DNA of 64,000 nt from contig NZ_JAFLWW010000013.1 in NCBI RefSeq assembly GCF_018555685.1, forward strand, positions 62,001 to 126,000, given 5' to 3'. This document shows positions 1-10,380 of this stretch, in pieces. Each line of letters begins with the position of its first letter. The first letter of the stretch is position 1. A program made the position numbers and the translations under genes. This DNA comes from Aminobacter anthyllidis. Lineage in GTDB: Bacteria > Pseudomonadota > Alphaproteobacteria > Rhizobiales > Rhizobiaceae. A model generated the notes under the pieces. That model searched no databases, was not told the origin of the DNA, and saw only the letters and a list, made by a program, of their open reading frames with translations.

Positions 1-825
1 GCCGACGAGCAGCGGCTGGCGCGCCGAGGGGATCTCGACCATCCACAAGGTCTGGAAGCGGGTGCAGCCAGCCATCTTGCCGGCCTCGCGCACCTCTTCG
101 GCAACGCCCTTGAGGCCGAGGATTGTCAGCCGCGCCATCGGCGGTATGGCGAAGATGACGGTGGCGATGGTGCCCGCCTTGTGGCCGACGCCGATGAACA
201 CGGCGATCGGGATCAGGTAGGAAAAATGCGGCAGCGACTGCAGCACGTTGAGCAGCGGCACGACGAGCGCTTCGAACCACTGCTTCTTGACTGCGAGAAT
301 GCCGATGCCGAAACCGATGAGACCGGCGATGGGGGCGGCGACCAGCACCACCGACAAGGTGATCATCGACAGTTCCCATTTGCCGAAGATCGCCATATAG
401 GCGACGCATCCGGCAGCGAGAAGGCCGAGCCGCCAGTCCTTGAGATACCAGCCGAGCACGCCCGACAGACCGGTCGTCATCACCCATGGCATCGCAGCGA
501 CGCCGAGCTTGGGAAAGCCGGCGACGAGCAGGCCCTCGACGAAGGCCAGCGGCCAGGTGATCAGCTCGGCAATTCCGCGCGTCAGGTCGCGGAACGAAAA
601 CAGGCCGAAGATCGCGTCGTCGCGCAGGTGGTCGACGACAGTGTTCGCCCAGTCGACGAAGGGGATCGTCCAGCCTTTGGGCACCTGCACCGCCCAGTCT
701 GGAAGCAGCGAGGCGGCGAGCAGCAGGATGGCGAATGGCATTATGACGAGCAGCGGCTTGGTCATCGAAGCCAGCGGCTTCTGCGTCTCCATCTCTTCCG
801 GTCGGATCAGCGTCGCGGCACTCAT
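1..825 (-). CDS. tmoW: TMAO/betaine-type ABC transporter permease, partial (TmoW-like)
   Basis: Partial gene: the start is at 825 and the 3' end lies beyond base 1, leaving about 275 codons. It encodes a polytopic inner-membrane protein of the ProW/OpuAB permease family. A hydrophobic segment follows the cytoplasmic N-terminus (MSAATLIRPEEMETQKPLAS), further membrane spans follow, and an EAA-type coupling loop (EVREAGKMAGCTRFQTLWMV) lies near the truncated end. The start overlaps the stop of the ATPase gene as ATGA (822-825), so the two are translationally coupled. The fold alone fits glycine betaine, proline, choline or TMAO import. The TMAO assignment is inferred from the neighbouring TorTSR-type sensors and TMAO demethylase. 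Confidence 0.8.
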   Translation of the reverse strand, partial: MSAATLIRPEEMETQKPLASMTKPLLVIMPFAILLLAASLLPDWAVQVPKGWTIPFVDWANTVVDHLRDDAIFGLFSFRDLTRGIAELITWPLAFVEGLLVAGFPKLGVAAMPWVMTTGLSGVLGWYLKDWRLGLLAAGCVAYMAIFGKWELSMITLSVVLVAAPIAGLIGFGIGILAVKKQWFEALVVPLLNVLQSLPHFSYLIPIAVFIGVGHKAGTIATVIFAIPPMARLTILGLKGVAEEVREAGKMAGCTRFQTLWMVEIPSARQPLLVG

Positions 826-1850
826 GCGCACTGTTCCTTGCCATAGAGCGCGTCGATCAGGCTGGCGCGGCTGAGCGTGCCGACGAGCGCGCCGCCGTCG
901 TCGATCACGTCGACCGGGCGCTCCGATGACAGTACCTGTCGGGCGACGGTGGCCAGCAGCGCCTGTGCATGTACCGCTGCGGCGTCGGGGGCGCGCGAGG
1001 ATGCGGGCGCCATGACTGATCGCACCGACAGCAGCCGGTCGTGGGAAACGTTGCGGGTGAATTCGGCGACATAAGGGGTGGCCGGGCAGGTGACCAGTTC
1101 TTCGGCGGTGCCGAGCTGTTCGACGACGCCGTCCTTCATGATGGCGATGCGGTCGGCGACGCGGATCGCCTCGTCGAAGTCGTGGGTGATGAAGACGATC
1201 GTCTTGTTGAGCACCTGCTGCAGGCGCAGGAACTCGTCCTGCATCTCGCGGCGGATCAGCGGGTCGAGCGCCGAGAACGGCTCGTCGAGGAACCAGACGT
1301 CGGGGCCGACGGCGAGCGAGCGGGCGATGCCGACGCGCTGCTGCTGGCCGCCGGAGAGCTCGCGCGGATAGTAGCCCTCGCGGCCCTTGAGACCGACGAG
1401 CTCGATCACTTCGCGGGCGCGCGCCTCGCGCTTCTGGCGGTCGGTGCCGCGAACCTGGAGCGGGAAGGCGACATTGTCGAGCACCGTGCGGTGCGGCAGC
1501 AAGGCGAAGTGCTGGAACACCATGCCCATCTTGTGGCGCCTGAGGTCGATCAGCTCGCGCTCGGTAGCCGCGAGGATGTCGCGGCCTTCGAACATGACCT
1601 CGCCCGATGTCGGTTCGATCAACCTTGCCAGGCAACGCAACAGCGTCGACTTGCCGGAGCCGGAGAGCCCCATGACGACGAGGATCTCGCCCGGCATGAC
1701 CTCAAACGAGACGTCTCGGACAGCCGGAATATAGCCTTCGGCGCGGATGGTTTCGATGGAGGGCGAACCGCCCTGGCGTTTGAGGAAACCGGCCGGATCG
1801 GAACCGTAGAGCTTCCAAAGGTTGCGGCATGCGATTTTGGGTTCGGACAT
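822..1850 (-). CDS. tmoV: TMAO/betaine-type ABC transporter ATP-binding protein (TmoV-like)
   Basis: The 342-aa ATPase of the importer belongs to the ProV/OpuAA family. Walker A GLSGSGKST is at about residues 61-69, signature LSGGQQQR at 166-173 and Walker B VWFLDEP at 186-192. A C-terminal extension from about residue 270 resembles a single CBS-like regulatory segment, shorter than the paired CBS domains of E. coli ProV. It energises uptake of a quaternary amine or N-oxide with the permease and binding protein on either side. The order binding protein - ATPase - permease matches the TMAO-specific TmoXVW transporters known in marine alphaproteobacteria. Specificity cannot be read from the ATPase itself. 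Confidence 0.85.
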   Translation of the reverse strand: MSEPKIACRNLWKLYGSDPAGFLKRQGGSPSIETIRAEGYIPAVRDVSFEVMPGEILVVMGLSGSGKSTLLRCLARLIEPTSGEVMFEGRDILAATERELIDLRRHKMGMVFQHFALLPHRTVLDNVAFPLQVRGTDRQKREARAREVIELVGLKGREGYYPRELSGGQQQRVGIARSLAVGPDVWFLDEPFSALDPLIRREMQDEFLRLQQVLNKTIVFITHDFDEAIRVADRIAIMKDGVVEQLGTAEELVTCPATPYVAEFTRNVSHDRLLSVRSVMAPASSRAPDAAAVHAQALLATVARQVLSSERPVDVIDDGGALVGTLSRASLIDALYGKEQCA

Positions 1851-1949
1851 GTCTGCCTCTCGCCAAGGGGGCCGATGGGTAAGCGCGGCAAGGTGGCGCC
1901 CGCATGAGCGGGCGTCACGGTGCCATGACAGGACGTATGGATGGAGCGG

Positions 1950-2903
1950 TTAGCTGGCGGAACCGAGCCAGGTCTTCCAGCGCCCTTCATTGTCGGCCAG
2001 CCATTTGTCGGCGGCCTGGTCGGGCTCCATGTTGTCGATGTCGGCGAGCTTGGCCTGGACCGCGATGTCCATGTTGGAGAAGTTGATCTTCTGCAGGATG
2101 GCGTAGGCCTTGGGCCACTTGGTGGGGAATTCCTTCCAGGCGGCGATCTTGAGATAGCCGTCCTTCGGGTTGCCGCAGTCATAGGTCAGCTCTTTGTTCG
2201 AGCCCCAGGCTGGATCGTCCTTGCACTGGGGGTCGAAGGCCGGGAACTCGACGAACTTGCCGTCGTACAGCGCCTCGACGAAATTCGGCGTCCAGTTGAA
2301 CAGGACGATGGGCTCCTTGCGCTTGAATGCGGATTCGAGTTCGGCCCACAACGCCGCGGATGAACCGGCATTGACGACCTCGAAGTTCATGCCGAGCGCT
2401 TCGACACGCTCGGAGTCATGCTTGAGCCAGTCGACCGGGCCGCCGAGGAAACGGCCCTTGGGCGCGGTTTCCGCCGTTGCGAACTTGTCGGCGCAGGCGT
2501 TCAGCGCTTCCCAAGCAGGCAGGCCGGGGCAGGCTTCCTCGACATAGGTCGGATACCACCATTCCTCGCGGGTCTTGGCGTCATGGGTGGCGGCATCGAC
2601 GACGCAGCCCTCCTTGACCACCTTCTGGAACGCGACGCCGAAGGCGCCTTCCCAGACTTCATGCACGAGGCTGACGTCGCCTTCGCACAGTGCCGTGTAG
2701 ACGACCTGGCTGTCAGCGGAGACGTATTCGACCTTGGCGCCGCCCTTCTCGAGCAGCTTGCCGACGATATGCGCGCCGACGATCTGGCTCGACCAGTTGT
2801 GCGTCGGGATCTTGATGACGTCGGTGGAATCCTCGGCGAAAGCCGTACCGGCCGCGAAAGCCATGATCGTGGCCATGGATGCGGACTTCGTGAACTTGCT
2901 CAT
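1950..2903 (-). CDS. tmoX: TMAO/betaine-type periplasmic substrate-binding protein (TmoX-like)
   Basis: This 317-aa secreted binding protein belongs to the OpuAC/ProX family. A signal peptide (MSKFTKSASMATIMAFAAG...AFA) precedes a mature part beginning EDSTDVIKIPTHNWSS. The family segment THNWSSQIVGAHIVGKLLEK and several aromatic residues typical of trimethylammonium cages are present. I place the start at 2903 rather than the in-frame ATG at 2915 because GGGAG sits six bases before it. It is the first gene of the leftward tmoXVW operon and diverges from the TorR-type regulator. The ligand is inferred to be TMAO from the adjacent Tdm and TorTSR homologues; glycine betaine or choline remain possible. 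Confidence 0.82.
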   Translation of the reverse strand: MSKFTKSASMATIMAFAAGTAFAEDSTDVIKIPTHNWSSQIVGAHIVGKLLEKGGAKVEYVSADSQVVYTALCEGDVSLVHEVWEGAFGVAFQKVVKEGCVVDAATHDAKTREEWWYPTYVEEACPGLPAWEALNACADKFATAETAPKGRFLGGPVDWLKHDSERVEALGMNFEVVNAGSSAALWAELESAFKRKEPIVLFNWTPNFVEALYDGKFVEFPAFDPQCKDDPAWGSNKELTYDCGNPKDGYLKIAAWKEFPTKWPKAYAILQKINFSNMDIAVQAKLADIDNMEPDQAADKWLADNEGRWKTWLGSAS

Positions 2904-3009
2904 TGAAGCTCCCATTGTTTTGTGTTGCGATCGTTCCCGTGGAGTTTCGGATGTGGCCTCTATGGGCCTGTGCTTTTTCCGCTCCAGCCCTGCAAAGATA
3001 GCCGGGAGA

Positions 3010-3060
3010 AGTGAACCGGTGTCGGGCGGGGTGTAAAAGTCGTGGTCCGAATTGTGAAAA
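3010..3060 (-). promoter_or_regulatory. Triple direct-repeat array upstream of tmoX (candidate TorR-type operator)
   Basis: Read toward tmoX, three octamers follow one another: TTTTCACA (3060-3053), TTTTACAC (3038-3031) and GGTTCACT (3017-3010). Their starts are 22 and 21 bp apart, about two helical turns each. The array occupies the gap between tmoX and the divergent regulator gene and lies about 105 bp before the tmoX start. An array with the same order and spacing precedes tdm (7904-7954). OmpR-family regulators bind as tandem direct repeats, so the response regulator encoded next door is the natural candidate. This is a pattern match by eye, not a proven site. Confidence 0.6.
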
Positions 3061-3091
3061 GATGTTAATATAGGCGGGAGGATAAGATGGC

Positions 3092-3826
3092 ATGCGGGTT
3101 CAACATCACATCGTGATCGTCGAGGACGACCCGGTTACGCGAGCCAAACTCGCGGGGTATTTCCTGGCCGAGGGATACAAGGTCAGCGAGGCCGGGGACG
3201 GCGAGCAGATGCGTGCCATCATGGGCAGGCACCCGGCCGACCTCTTGATGATCGACATCAACCTGCCCGGGGAGGACGGGCTCAAGCTGACCCGCGAACA
3301 GCGCGAGCGCTCCGACGTCGGTATCATCCTGGTCACTGGAAGGACCGATACCGTGGACCGGATCGTCGGGCTCGAAATCGGCGCCGACGACTATGTCACC
3401 AAGCCGGTGGAGCATCGCGAGTTGCTTGCCCGCGTAAAAGGCCTGCTGCGCCGCGTCGGCAAGGGCCGGCAGCCGATCGTGGCCTCGGGCGCGCGCCAGT
3501 TCTACGGCTGGACGCTCGAAGTGGCGCGCCGCACGCTGCAGGCAGCCGACGGCACGTTCGTCGAGCTGACCGGCGCCGAGTTCAAGCTGTTGTCGGTGCT
3601 GACCGCCAACCCCGGCCAGGTGCTGTCGCGCGAGCGGCTGTTGCATGAGATTTCAAGGCGCGAATGGGATGCCAGCGACCGCACGGTGGATGTGCTGGTC
3701 AGGCGCTTGCGGCAGAAGCTGAACGACAATCCACGCACCCCGCGCATCATCGTCACTGCCCATGGCGAGGGCTATTTCTTCGCGCCGGATGCCAACCAGC
3801 CGGCGCGTGGGGCTTCAGGCTTCTGA
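3092..3826 (+). CDS. torR: OmpR-family response regulator, TorR-like
   Basis: This 244-aa two-component regulator has an N-terminal receiver domain (VEDD acidic cluster near residue 11, phospho-acceptor Asp55 in MIDINLPG, Lys in the TKPVE loop). A C-terminal winged-helix OmpR/PhoB DNA-binding domain (FKLLSVLTANPGQVLSRERL, DRTVDVLVRRLRQKL) starts near residue 140. GGGAGGA lies nine bases before the ATG. It is convergent with the hybrid kinase gene, with only nine bases between their stops. The set regulator, hybrid kinase and periplasmic TorT-like protein matches the E. coli torR-torS-torT sensory system. The likely targets here are tmoX and tdm, whose promoters share a repeat array; no torCAD reductase genes are visible. 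Confidence 0.85.
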   Translation: MRVQHHIVIVEDDPVTRAKLAGYFLAEGYKVSEAGDGEQMRAIMGRHPADLLMIDINLPGEDGLKLTREQRERSDVGIILVTGRTDTVDRIVGLEIGADDYVTKPVEHRELLARVKGLLRRVGKGRQPIVASGARQFYGWTLEVARRTLQAADGTFVELTGAEFKLLSVLTANPGQVLSRERLLHEISRREWDASDRTVDVLVRRLRQKLNDNPRTPRIIVTAHGEGYFFAPDANQPARGASGF

Positions 3827-3835
3827 CGGCGGTCG

Positions 3836-6754
<2,919 letters not shown>

Positions 6755-6801
6755 GGCTCATATAACCATGGTTTGCGCAGCAAGCGGAAGCTGTCTAGCG
6801 T

Positions 6802-7890
6802 ATGGCGATGATTTCCCGCACCCGCCATCAGTGCCTGAACCTGCTGACCGCTGCGTGCCTGGCGCTCGGCAGCGGCCATTCCGCTGTTGCGGCCGAGGCA
6901 GTGACCAGCTGGAAACTCAATGCCTGGGAGCCGCCCTTCGACTATTCCAGGCGGCCGACCGTCATCGACTACCAGCCGGTCGCCAAGGCGGCAAAGCCGT
7001 GGCGCATCTGCGCGTCCTACCCGCATCTCAAGGATTCGTACTGGGTCAGCGTCAACTACGGCATGGTCGAGCAGGCGCGCTCGGCCGGCGTCAAGCTGAC
7101 CGTGGTCGAGGCCGGTGGTTATCCCAATCTCGAGCGCCAGATCGAGCAGATCCGCACCTGCAGCGCCAATGCCGATGCGCTGATCGTCGGCACCGTGTCC
7201 TATGAGGGCCTGACGCCGACGATCAGGGAAATTGCCAAGCGCATGCCGGTGATTGCCGCGGTCAACGACATCGACGACGCCGGCATTGCCGCCAAGTCGG
7301 GTGTTTCGTGGGAGGAGATGGGCCAGTCGATCGGCGCCTATCTCGCGCGGCTGCACCCGACAGGTTCGATGCCGGTCAGCGTCGCCTGGTTTCCGGGGCC
7401 CAAGGGCGCGGGCTGGGTCAAGTTCGTCGAGGCCGGCTTCCGGGGCGCGCTGGAGCACAGTTCGGCCAACATCGCCGCCGTCAAATGGGGCGACACCGGT
7501 GTCGAGATCCAGCTCTTGCTGATCGAGGAACTGCTCGAAGCCAATCCCGACATCGACTACATCGTCGGCAGCGCGCCGACCGCCGATGCGGCTGTCAGCA
7601 TCCTGAGGGCGCAAGGCCGCGCCAACCATGTCCAGATCCTGGCCGACTATTTCACCCACGGCACGTTCCGCGAGATCAACCGGGGCAAGGTGGTCGCAGC
7701 ACCTACTGACTCACCGCCGCTGCAGGGCCGCATCGCCATCGACCAGGCGATCCGGGCGATCGAAGGCACGCTGCGCTACCGCCATGTCGGGCCACCCGTC
7801 GAGGTGATCGACCGGACCAACGTGCAGTCGCTCGACCTCGAGCGCAGCCTTGCGCCAGCCTGGTTCAAGCCGACCTTCGAGGTCCAGTAG
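6802..7890 (+). CDS. torT: Periplasmic TMAO-sensing protein, TorT-like
   Basis: This 362-aa exported protein is of the periplasmic-binding-protein type I fold. A signal peptide (MAMISRTRHQ...SAVAAEA) is followed by SWKLNAWEPPFDYSRRPT and the two-lobed PBP body, as in TorT. In E. coli, TorT binds TMAO and passes the signal to the sensor domain of TorS. The gene lies back to back with the torS-like gene and directly upstream of tdm. The gap to tdm holds the triple repeat array, which suggests that tdm has its own promoter. The start could also be the second ATG at 6808. It is not an importer component, because no matching permease lies beside it. Confidence 0.85.
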   Translation: MAMISRTRHQCLNLLTAACLALGSGHSAVAAEAVTSWKLNAWEPPFDYSRRPTVIDYQPVAKAAKPWRICASYPHLKDSYWVSVNYGMVEQARSAGVKLTVVEAGGYPNLERQIEQIRTCSANADALIVGTVSYEGLTPTIREIAKRMPVIAAVNDIDDAGIAAKSGVSWEEMGQSIGAYLARLHPTGSMPVSVAWFPGPKGAGWVKFVEAGFRGALEHSSANIAAVKWGDTGVEIQLLLIEELLEANPDIDYIVGSAPTADAAVSILRAQGRANHVQILADYFTHGTFREINRGKVVAAPTDSPPLQGRIAIDQAIRAIEGTLRYRHVGPPVEVIDRTNVQSLDLERSLAPAWFKPTFEVQ

Positions 7891-7903
7891 CTTCAGTCAC
7901 AAC

Positions 7904-7954
7904 TTTTCACATTTGGCATGGCGATTTTCACTTATCTCGGCGGACTGGTTCACA
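7904..7954 (+). promoter_or_regulatory. Triple direct-repeat array upstream of tdm (candidate TorR-type operator)
   Basis: Three octamers in the orientation of tdm: TTTTCACA (7904-7911), TTTTCACT (7925-7932) and GGTTCACA (7947-7954), with starts 21 and 22 bp apart. The third copy ends about 53 bp before the chosen tdm start. Order, orientation and spacing match the array before tmoX (3060-3010), including the change of the third copy to GGTTCAC. The simplest reading is a common activator site for both TMAO promoters. Confidence 0.62.
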
Positions 7955-8007
7955 GCCACGGGATAGCTTGAGCTTTACGATCTCAGGATTGCTGCGAGGA
8001 GGCGGTG

Positions 8008-10380
8008 ATGGTGATGAGTGCTGAGGCATACCCTGCCGTGACGGCCGGCCCCCCGCGTCCGAGCCTGATCCTTCAGCCTGGGCTGCTTGTGCCTGGGATG
8101 GAGCGTTACCACGTGCCGGGCCGCAGTGCGGTGCTTGTTGACGTCGAGGCCGGCGACACGGTGAGCGTGCGCAATCTCGAAGGCGGCCAGGCTTGCGAGC
8201 TGGTGGCGTTCGATGCGCAGGGACGGGCCGATCCGGGTATTCTGGGCACGCGTTCGAACAGCGATGCGTCAGGACTGAAGGCGCTGCTGGTCGACGGCGA
8301 CGACAGCTTGCAGAAGTTCCGCTCAGGCCTCGCCCGCCGCAAGCTCGATCTCGGACGGGCGGAAGCCGTGCGCTTCTTCGATGGCGGCACGCCTGCCGGT
8401 GTTGAGGAAAGCTTCACCGTTGCCCGCGCCGGTTCTTTGGTCATTGCCGCGCCCGGTGCGCCGATGGCGATCGACAGCCATGACACGGCGACACCCCTTG
8501 TGGTGATGGTCAGGCGCGCGACGGTGCGTACTGCCCCTGTCGGTTTCGACCTGCCAGATCCGCTCGCCGATCCGGTGCTCGATCTCAGGGTCAGGTCGAA
8601 GACGGCGGAGAGCTATTTCGTCAAGGCCGGCGACTACATCCAGATCATCGATGTCGACGGCCGCCAGTGCACCGACTTCCAGTGCTTTTCGGCGCGCAAG
8701 CTCGACAAGGGCCGCGACCTCGCCCTCGACGTTACCGCGACGCGTTCGCTGATGGGCCACGCCTATCCGATGCCCGGCCTGCATGCCAAATATTACGATC
8801 AGGATTTCGAGCCGCTTGTCGAGGTCGTGCAGGACACCTGCGGCCGCCACGATGCTTTCGCGCTTGCCTGCTACGCCAAATATTACGACGACATCGGTTA
8901 TCCCGGCCACATCAACTGTTCCGAGAATTTCAACGGCGCGCTGACCCCGCATGGCGTCAATGCCCGCGCCGGCTGGATGGCGGTCAACTTCTTCTTCAAC
9001 ACCGGCATCGATGCGCATGGCGTGATGTTCTCCGACGAACCCTGGTCGCGGCCGGGCGACCATGTGCTGCTCAGGGCGTTGACCGACATCGTCTGCGTGT
9101 CCTCGGCCTGCCCTGACGACACCACGCCGGCCAATGGCTGGAACCTCACCGACATCCACGTCCGGACCTATTCCGGCAACACCACATTCCAGCGCGCGAT
9201 CGCCCGACGCACGACCCCGGAGGCTGAAGCCAAGATGACCCGCGAGACCGCCTTCCATTCAAGCTTTGCCAAGCACACCCGCAACTTCATCGAATACAAG
9301 GGCTTCTGGCTGCCGCAGGAATTCGCCAAGGAGGGCGCCATCGAGGAATACTGGGCCTGCCGCCAAAAGGCGGTGGTGATGGATCTTTCCGCACTGCGCA
9401 AGTTCGAGGTCACCGGCCCGGATGCCGAAGCCCTGCTGCAGTACACGCTGACCCGCGACGTCAAGAAGCTCGGTATCGGCCAGGTCGTCTACACCGCCAT
9501 GTGCTACGAGCATGGCGGCATGATCGACGACGGCACCTTGCTCAGGCTGGGCAAGGACAATTTCCGCTGGATCTGCGGCGACGACTATTCCGGCGTCTGG
9601 CTGCGCGAGCAGGCGGAGAAACTCGGGCTCAAGGTGCTGGTGCGCTCCTCGACCGACCAGATGCACAACATCGCCGTCCAGGGCCCCAACAGCCGCGACA
9701 TCCTGAAAGAGATCGTCTGGACGCCGCCGCACCAGCCGGCGCTGTCGGAGCTCGAATGGTTCCGCTTCACCATCGGCCGCATCGGCGATGCCACCGGCGT
9801 GCCGGTCGTCGTGTCACGCACCGGCTACACCGGCGAACTCGGCTACGAGGTCTGGTGCCATCCGCGCGATGCCGAAAAGGTCTTCGACGCGGTGTGGGAA
9901 GCGGGCCAGCCGCATGGGCTCAAGCCGATGGGCTTTGCCGCGCTCGACATGGTGCGCATCGAGGCCGGGCTGATCTTTGCCAATTACGAGTTCTCCGACC
10001 AGACCGACCCGTTTGAAGCCGGCATCGGCTTCACCGTGCCGCTCAAGACCAAGACCGACGACTTCATCGGCCGCGAGGCGCTGATCAGGCGCAAGGACAA
10101 CCCGATCCACAAGCTTGTCGGCCTCGACATCGATAGCAACGTCGCTGTCGGCCATGGCGACTGCGTCCATATCGGCCGCGCCCAGATCGGCATCGTCACC
10201 TCGTCGATGCGTTCGCCGGTGCTGGGCAAAAACATCGCGCTCGCCCGCGTCGACGCAACCCACGCCAATGTTGGCACCGAAGTCGAGATCGGCAAGCTCG
10301 ACGGCCAGCAAAAGCGCCTGCCGGCCAGGATCGTGCCTTTCGCCCACTACGATCCCAAGAAGGAAAAGCCACGGTCGTAG
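8008..10380 (+). CDS. tdm: Trimethylamine N-oxide demethylase (TMAO aldolase)
   Basis: This 790-aa two-part enzyme has an N-terminal region (residues about 20-400) of DUF1989 type, apparently as two related halves, with Cys278 (DTCGRHD), Cys304 (HINCSENFN), Cys363 and Cys368 as candidate zinc ligands. A C-terminal GcvT-like tetrahydrofolate-binding region (about 425-790) includes DDGTLLRLGKDNFRWICG and RIEAGLIFANYEF. This architecture and length are those of Tdm, which splits TMAO into dimethylamine and formaldehyde, with the GcvT part thought to capture formaldehyde on folate. AGGAGG (7997-8002) favours ATG 8008 over GTG 8005 or ATG 8014. A bifunctional aminomethyltransferase of another specificity is the main alternative, but the TorTSR and importer neighbours argue for TMAO. 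Confidence 0.85.
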   Translation: MVMSAEAYPAVTAGPPRPSLILQPGLLVPGMERYHVPGRSAVLVDVEAGDTVSVRNLEGGQACELVAFDAQGRADPGILGTRSNSDASGLKALLVDGDDSLQKFRSGLARRKLDLGRAEAVRFFDGGTPAGVEESFTVARAGSLVIAAPGAPMAIDSHDTATPLVVMVRRATVRTAPVGFDLPDPLADPVLDLRVRSKTAESYFVKAGDYIQIIDVDGRQCTDFQCFSARKLDKGRDLALDVTATRSLMGHAYPMPGLHAKYYDQDFEPLVEVVQDTCGRHDAFALACYAKYYDDIGYPGHINCSENFNGALTPHGVNARAGWMAVNFFFNTGIDAHGVMFSDEPWSRPGDHVLLRALTDIVCVSSACPDDTTPANGWNLTDIHVRTYSGNTTFQRAIARRTTPEAEAKMTRETAFHSSFAKHTRNFIEYKGFWLPQEFAKEGAIEEYWACRQKAVVMDLSALRKFEVTGPDAEALLQYTLTRDVKKLGIGQVVYTAMCYEHGGMIDDGTLLRLGKDNFRWICGDDYSGVWLREQAEKLGLKVLVRSSTDQMHNIAVQGPNSRDILKEIVWTPPHQPALSELEWFRFTIGRIGDATGVPVVVSRTGYTGELGYEVWCHPRDAEKVFDAVWEAGQPHGLKPMGFAALDMVRIEAGLIFANYEFSDQTDPFEAGIGFTVPLKTKTDDFIGREALIRRKDNPIHKLVGLDIDSNVAVGHGDCVHIGRAQIGIVTSSMRSPVLGKNIALARVDATHANVGTEVEIGKLDGQQKRLPARIVPFAHYDPKKEKPRS

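Follow-up and report, generated by a model that had tools for sequence, protein, structure and literature searches.

A TorTSR-type sensing system with predicted operators before TMAO import and demethylation genes in Aminobacter anthyllidis

Among described systems, those most like the one considered here are TorTSR-torCAD of Escherichia coli, in which TorT, TorS, and TorR act on a target operon divergent from torR, and the TmoXWV-Tdm and Tdm/TmoP sets of Ruegeria pomeroyi and Methylocella, respectively. In Ruegeria the switch for catabolism of trimethylamine N-oxide (TMAO), reported in 2026, works from inside the cell: the AraC-type activator of tdm, TmaR, responds to a compound formed late in monomethylamine catabolism, and TmoR represses tmm; TorTSR is not mentioned in the parts of that report available to us (PMC13390433). 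We describe here positions 1-10380 of a 64,000-nucleotide stretch of Aminobacter anthyllidis DNA (G000:C5:62001-126000, the window, from a genome of 6.7 Mb in 30 contigs), where homologues of both kinds of system lie together. From left to right the order is tmoW, tmoV, and tmoX on the minus strand, torR on the plus strand, torS on the minus strand, and torT and tdm on the plus strand, with tdm ending at 10380; an earlier sequence-only reading had placed these genes together, and curated models and structures confirm their families and domains. Judged from sequence, it is likely that they form a TMAO-inducible scavenging unit under TorTSR control, exerted via operators before tmoX and tdm. The genes and operators are as follows.

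1-831, minus strand: tmoW, ATP-binding cassette (ABC) permease, cut by the window edge (first 277 of 665 residues in the window)
822-1850, minus strand: tmoV, ABC ATP-binding protein of the ProV/choline/TMAO type (TIGR01186, 344.7 bits, cut-off 326.6)
1950-2915, minus strand: tmoX, periplasmic TMAO-binding protein (structure 4xz6, E 3.7e-119)
2991-3070, plus strand: operator 1, predicted, in the tmoX-torR gap (held-out 80-bp model, 47.5 bits, window rank 1)
3092-3826, plus strand: torR, OmpR-type response regulator (NF008034 TorR, 305.3 bits, cut-off 275)
3836-6754, minus strand: torS, hybrid kinase (TIGR02956 TorS, 717.4 bits, cut-off 676.5)
6802-7890, plus strand: torT, periplasmic TMAO-sensor protein (NF008185 TorT, 387.3 bits, cut-off 200)
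7894-7973, minus strand: operator 2, predicted, in the torT-tdm gap (held-out 80-bp model, 17.7 bits, window rank 2)
8005-10380, plus strand: tdm, TMAO demethylase (NF053776, 1263 bits, cut-off 1100)

Operator 1 spans 80 bp and consists of a -10-like hexamer followed by four half-sites spaced 22, 21, and 10 bp, with the core 20-mer at 3051-3070 and the predicted tmoX -10 (TATCTT) on the minus strand at 2995-3000. All four half-sites recur in operator 2 with the same 22-21-10 layout and with an orientation to tdm that is that of operator 1 to tmoX; the predicted tdm -10 (TAGCTT) is on the plus strand at 7964-7969, and the half-sites are the conserved islands of the torT-tdm gap in five to six relatives. 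A 20-bp model from whose training the window was excluded gives, across the whole 64 kb, 29.9 bits to the tmoX-torR site, 16.3 bits to the torT-tdm site, and 8.1 bits to the third-best site. With the 80-bp model, which was trained on 43 loci outside the Aminobacter/Mesorhizobium group, the third-best site of the window scores -21.3, and the best score among 200 shuffles of 5.1 kb is -12.3.

The layout of these operators is identical to that of the E. coli tor boxes. Applied to 13 kb of E. coli, the 80-bp model ranks the torR-torC gap, which holds the tor boxes, first at 17.8 bits, with the next site at -14.0; the gap has the 22-21-10 spacing and a TAAGAT hexamer, and the distance to the -10-like hexamer is 14 bp there and in both operators of the window alike. 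It contains CTGTTCATAT and CCGTTCATCC, which are tor boxes in Salmonella according to the available part of a report in which CTGTTCATAT is bound by TorR in a gel shift (PMC9239176). TorTSR systems linked to TorA in Hyphomicrobiales and Azospirillum (L059, L060, L062, L063, and L302) resemble the window in that the model ranks the operator in the torA gap first in all five, with scores of 2.1, 43.1, 23.4, and 24.6 for the torR-torA gaps of the four Hyphomicrobiales loci and 18.2 for the torA-torT gap of Azospirillum. What sets these TorA-linked systems apart is a TorA-type reductase in the position that tmoXVW occupies here. The tmoX-torR gap of Paracoccus yeei scores 72.5. Relative to E. coli, the importer replaces the TorCAD reductase as the target, torS and torT stand in the opposite order, and a second operator is present, before tdm. 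The proposal of the sequence-only reading that the sensor is wired to TMAO import and demethylation thus holds insofar as one operator type, as before E. coli torCAD, precedes both tmoX/torR and tdm and takes the first and second ranks in 64 kb, but it needs narrowing, because the importer is the widely conserved target and the operator before tdm was observed in the Aminobacter group alone.

We infer that TorT together with periplasmic TMAO would lead TorS to phosphorylate TorR via its relay, and that phosphorylated TorR would bind the four-box operator in the tmoX-torR gap and the matching operator before tdm. With activation as the presumed sign of control, expression of tmoXVW would bring TMAO into the cytoplasm, and expression of tdm would allow its conversion there to dimethylamine and formaldehyde, giving the unit its proposed scavenging physiology. 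The individual parts are all known, and control of the importer and tdm by TorTSR would be a new combination; no link of TorTSR to tmoXVW or tdm was found in the literature searched, which had preprints and most subscription journals outside its coverage.

The gene products are consistent with these roles. The importer and demethylase belong to the same families as those of R. pomeroyi and Methylocella, and the TmoX pocket is kept. Structure 4xz6 is the TMAO-bound TmoX of Ruegeria, and by hand count all seven of the seven TMAO-binding residues listed for it in the accessible part of its report are retained (PMC8918994). Both the aromatic box and the Glu that binds the TMAO oxygen are present, and the protein scores 38 bits on the choline-binding model against a cut-off of 379. 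The TmoV match is to a general betaine/choline model, and a TMAO-specific model appeared for neither TmoV nor TmoW. TorR is 55% identical to E. coli TorR. TorS has the PF21689 TorS sensor, HisKA, receiver, and Hpt domains, and by eye all three residues of the His-Asp-His relay align with those of E. coli TorS, although on the other TorS model (NF008543) it reaches 399.8 bits, far below the cut-off of 982. TorT falls about 1 bit short on a second model (TIGR02955, 308.9 bits, cut-off 310), and its structural matches include TorT (3o1h, E 1.2e-60), with 4yhs, labelled a sugar-binding protein, scoring higher. Tdm has the Pfam domains DUF1989 and GCV_T, aligns over its whole length with structure 9q59, and by eye on two alignments has both of the Asp residues that are Ala in structure 9q5a; it is 791 residues long counted from its GTG start, one more than the sequence-only reading gave.

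The name TorT covers proteins of more than one kind. Matches to the family occur in 38 of 397 genomes of the order, at 42 places, and 40 of these were re-read (the source genome's own place and G038:C370 were omitted): 28 are ABC-linked, four TorA-linked, two importer-linked, and six other, so the notion that every TorT-family match is a sensor was rejected. The ABC-linked proteins (loci L053-L058, L096, and L097 are among them) are binding proteins whose genes neighbor a sugar-type ABC operon; a 5-oxoprolinase gene is often present too, as two annotated plasmids show, and the name TorT is probably wrong for these proteins. A tree of 127 TorT rows separates the 30 ABC-linked rows, together with two 'other' rows, from the TorS-linked ones, with which the window TorT groups. 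W170 is present in 76 of 76 importer-linked and 5 of 5 TorA-linked rows but in 1 of 30 ABC-linked rows, and the corresponding counts for R290 are 76 of 76, 5 of 5, and 2 of 30. Aromatic residues are conserved at W81, Y107, W170, and Y283, and such residues make up the TMAO site of Vibrio TorT. A second tree, built from 57 TorT rows and including about half of the importer-linked ones, counts one change for the importer type and two for the TorA type; it settles neither the basal order nor the direction of change implied by the word 'recruited' in the sequence-only reading.

The association of TorTSR with the importer extends well beyond Aminobacter. A genome scan was seeded with six importer-linked TorTs and is therefore biased to the importer type; among its loci, the best 80 of 360 confirmed relatives, 70 have TorT, TorS, and tmo genes nearby, eight have TorS without tmo genes in the stretch, and two have neither, and no TorA match of 200 bits lies in the stretch at any of the 80. 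They span Hyphomicrobiales, Rhodobacterales, Rhodospirillales, and Gammaproteobacteria (e.g. Oceanospirillaceae), a broader range than the Hyphomicrobiales named earlier as the group to survey, and the same gene order is found on plasmids of Paracoccus aminophilus, P. yeei, Leisingera thetidis, and Gemmobacter fulvus. The TorTs closest to that of the window among named genomes are from A. carboxidus (90%), A. ciceronei (89%), A. niigataensis (88%), and A. aganoensis (86%), followed by Mesorhizobium and Pseudaminobacter, which by this one gene places the source organism with Aminobacter. We also note that two Leisingera plasmids share a torR-torS-torT layout, and that the torR-divergent position is held by a molybdopterin oxidoreductase in L. 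caerulea (L304) and by tmoWVX in L. thetidis (L094).

The operator recurs in the tmoX-torR gaps of other loci. In 64 divergent gaps (the window, L076, L093-L095, and 59 of the 80 loci), TGTTAA is found in 57 against 6.3 expected in shuffles and TGTGAA in 50 against 9.3. Alignment of 53 gaps, those in which the core is strong and the flank long enough, shows a -10-like TAnnnT in the tmoX direction and then half-sites spaced 22, 21, and 10; each element of the layout is present in 46 of the 53, and neither the first two half-sites nor the -10 was used in selecting the gaps. The 80 loci contain 79 sites of at least 13 bits, 14 of which are at other places, two of these being left-hand cassette copies in L099 and L100. 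One of 18 control stretches (L257) reached 13.3 bits; L261 and L262 had been dropped from the original 20, as their genomes carry this TorS, and a random 700-base background was not used, as it held true sites. The Vibrio loci L300 and L301 have torS and torT, with no TorA match and no convincing operator within the fetched stretch.

Placement of tdm is more variable. It lies within the fetched stretch of 20 of the 80 loci (part of them cut at contig or locus ends): directly after torT in five, operon-like after tmoW in eight, before tmoX in four, all gammaproteobacterial, and elsewhere in three. The torT-tdm adjacency that had been suggested for survey is thus real at some loci and was rejected as a general rule. 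Tdm itself is common in these organisms, being present at 1e-200 or better in 46 of the 50 genomes with the best of the 80 loci, in 40 of them over the cut-off, and of the four without it A. niigataensis has a tdm piece at a contig end. In a sample of 385 genomes of the class Tdm occurs in 34 at 1e-150, namely in three of the four with TorS over the cut-off (the source genome and three also among the 80 loci) versus 31 of the 381 others (Fisher p 0.002). A BisC/TorA match over the cut-off was found in two of the 50 genomes, or in 14 when lower ones at 1e-200 or better are counted.

A box lies directly 3' of torT in the window, L099, L100, L102, L103, and L108, and tdm follows it in the first five; in L108 the contig ends at the box, and a tdm starts at the end of another contig. 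The importer is thus the target shared across groups, and it is the Aminobacter group that has an operator directly before tdm. The source genome has a second tdm, 96% identical to that of the window at the protein level, on another contig (C12:816894-831000; L192 and L193) in a cluster with genes for trimethylamine monooxygenase, a TMAO permease, FolD, and formate-tetrahydrofolate ligase, and neither operator model finds an operator at this region. One Tdm copy may serve TMAO encountered outside the cell and the other TMAO produced within it. In Mesorhizobium sp. 1M-11 (L102), tdm flanks the locus on both sides, and the genome has four full-length tdm matches.

Several observations weigh against a unit with two operators, and some of them would suit a system in which TorTSR controls tmoXVW alone, with tdm under other regulators and its box without a role, as tdm is under TmaR in the part of the Ruegeria work available (PMC13390433). 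Operator 2 is weaker than operator 1, a single group of related genera supplies all box-bearing torT-tdm gaps, and in L129 (Kiloniellales) tdm follows torT directly without a box (5.5 bits). Elsewhere in TorTSR-bearing genomes, in groups that do have the box at tmoX-torR, none of 39 regions upstream of tdm reaches 13 bits (highest 12.8; one region spanned just 177 bases), which rules out a box before tdm in all TorTSR genomes, and for some of the 39, which lie inside a tmoW-tdm run, transcription could read through from tmoX. To these may be added that the TorA-linked TorTSR of L. caerulea has no convincing operator by the 80-bp model, and that the sole model passed by TmoW is that of a choline permease (TIGR03416, 373.5 bits, cut-off 363), so that its TMAO label derives from tmoX and position. 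Importer-only control is nonetheless unlikely, because the box before tdm keeps all four half-sites, the spacing, the orientation, and the -10-like hexamer, and these half-sites stand out by conservation among relatives; moreover, in the six kindred genomes of the Aminobacter group that have no box (L101, L104-L107, and L109) torT is not followed by tdm within the stretch, which at L109 is cut by a contig end.

The choline-permease match and the preponderance of sugar-type ABC binding proteins among 'TorT' places would also fit a TorT that senses another compound, such as another N-oxide, a sulfoxide, or a betaine, with the unit serving that compound. We regard this as quite improbable, given that the window TorT belongs with the TorS-linked TorTs, outside the ABC-linked clade, and has both W170 and R290, that TmoX has the entire TMAO pocket and scores far under the choline-binding cut-off, and that Tdm is a TMAO demethylase by NF053776. 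It is more improbable still, to the point of being hardly credible, that TorTSR actually acts on a TMAO or S-oxide reductase gene at another place in the genome. Queries with E. coli TorA, TorC, and TorD (tblastn) had no match in the window, in agreement with the sequence-only reading, and a whole-genome search for the BisC/TorA family returned two long members, at C5:48210-50483 and C2:182026-184287. Both are below the family cut-off (914.9 and 952.1 versus 1017.6), are set among other genes, and have by eye no evident N-terminal signal sequence; tblastn with E. coli TorC and TorD found no match in the two stretches around them, in a search confined to these stretches and the window, and no match to the box pattern with up to two mismatches lies near either. 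The possibility raised earlier of torCAD just outside the window as the target was rejected, since what is found there is one of these BisC-type genes, 11.5 kb to the left between aldehyde-dehydrogenase-like and LysR-like genes, with no TorC or TorD match in that stretch. The unit in the window is a TorTSR system by its protein families and operator and, by its target, is not a TMAO respiration system.

The two-operator scavenging unit that we favor bears on how TorTSR is viewed generally. It is somewhat probable that TorTSR senses TMAO as a portable module, with the target operon exchanged at one fixed promoter and the -10 and four-box 22-21-10 operator kept, that its role in many aerobic marine and soil Proteobacteria is to sense external TMAO for uptake and demethylation, and that enterobacterial anaerobic respiration is one use among several. 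That the operator in front of E. coli torCAD and the one in front of an alphaproteobacterial importer have kept one layout clearly exemplifies how targets are exchanged under a single regulator, and TorR regulons thereby become predictable from sequence. Next to the internal switch of Ruegeria, a second logic would operate from Aminobacter to Roseovarius and Oceanospirillaceae, with external TMAO sensed by a dedicated receptor, and annotation as a 'TMAO reductase system' may not imply TMAO respiration.

A third exact box in the genome, on C3, was rejected as a separate target, being part of a 3.7-kb cassette that lies in the tmoX-torR gap of two Aminobacter species. The cassette (L263 4138-7788 on G000:C3) has a tor-like box and encodes an OmpR-type regulator, a kinase, and a 371-residue protein without a Pfam match, and copies are found at about 2258-6120 in L099 and about 2410-6180 in L100. 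In A. carboxidus and A. ciceronei the cassette interrupts the tmoX-torR gap, is flanked on either side by a core copy, and is 91% identical to the C3 copy over 3,762 bp. The box pattern with one mismatch gave one additional match in 12 kindred genomes, at G406:C14:58550. At the borders of the unit, a GMC-type dehydrogenase gene lies 3' of tdm, and the remainder of tmoW is to the left of the window, the whole gene occupying L009 10834-12831 (665 residues). Further to the left is a second methylated-compound cluster (L051 3655-14513 and L009 8075-9124) with genes for OpuAC-type binding proteins, a TmoV-/TmoW-like pair (51% and 35%), a SnoaL-GcvT fusion, and an aldehyde dehydrogenase, together with the BisC-type gene.

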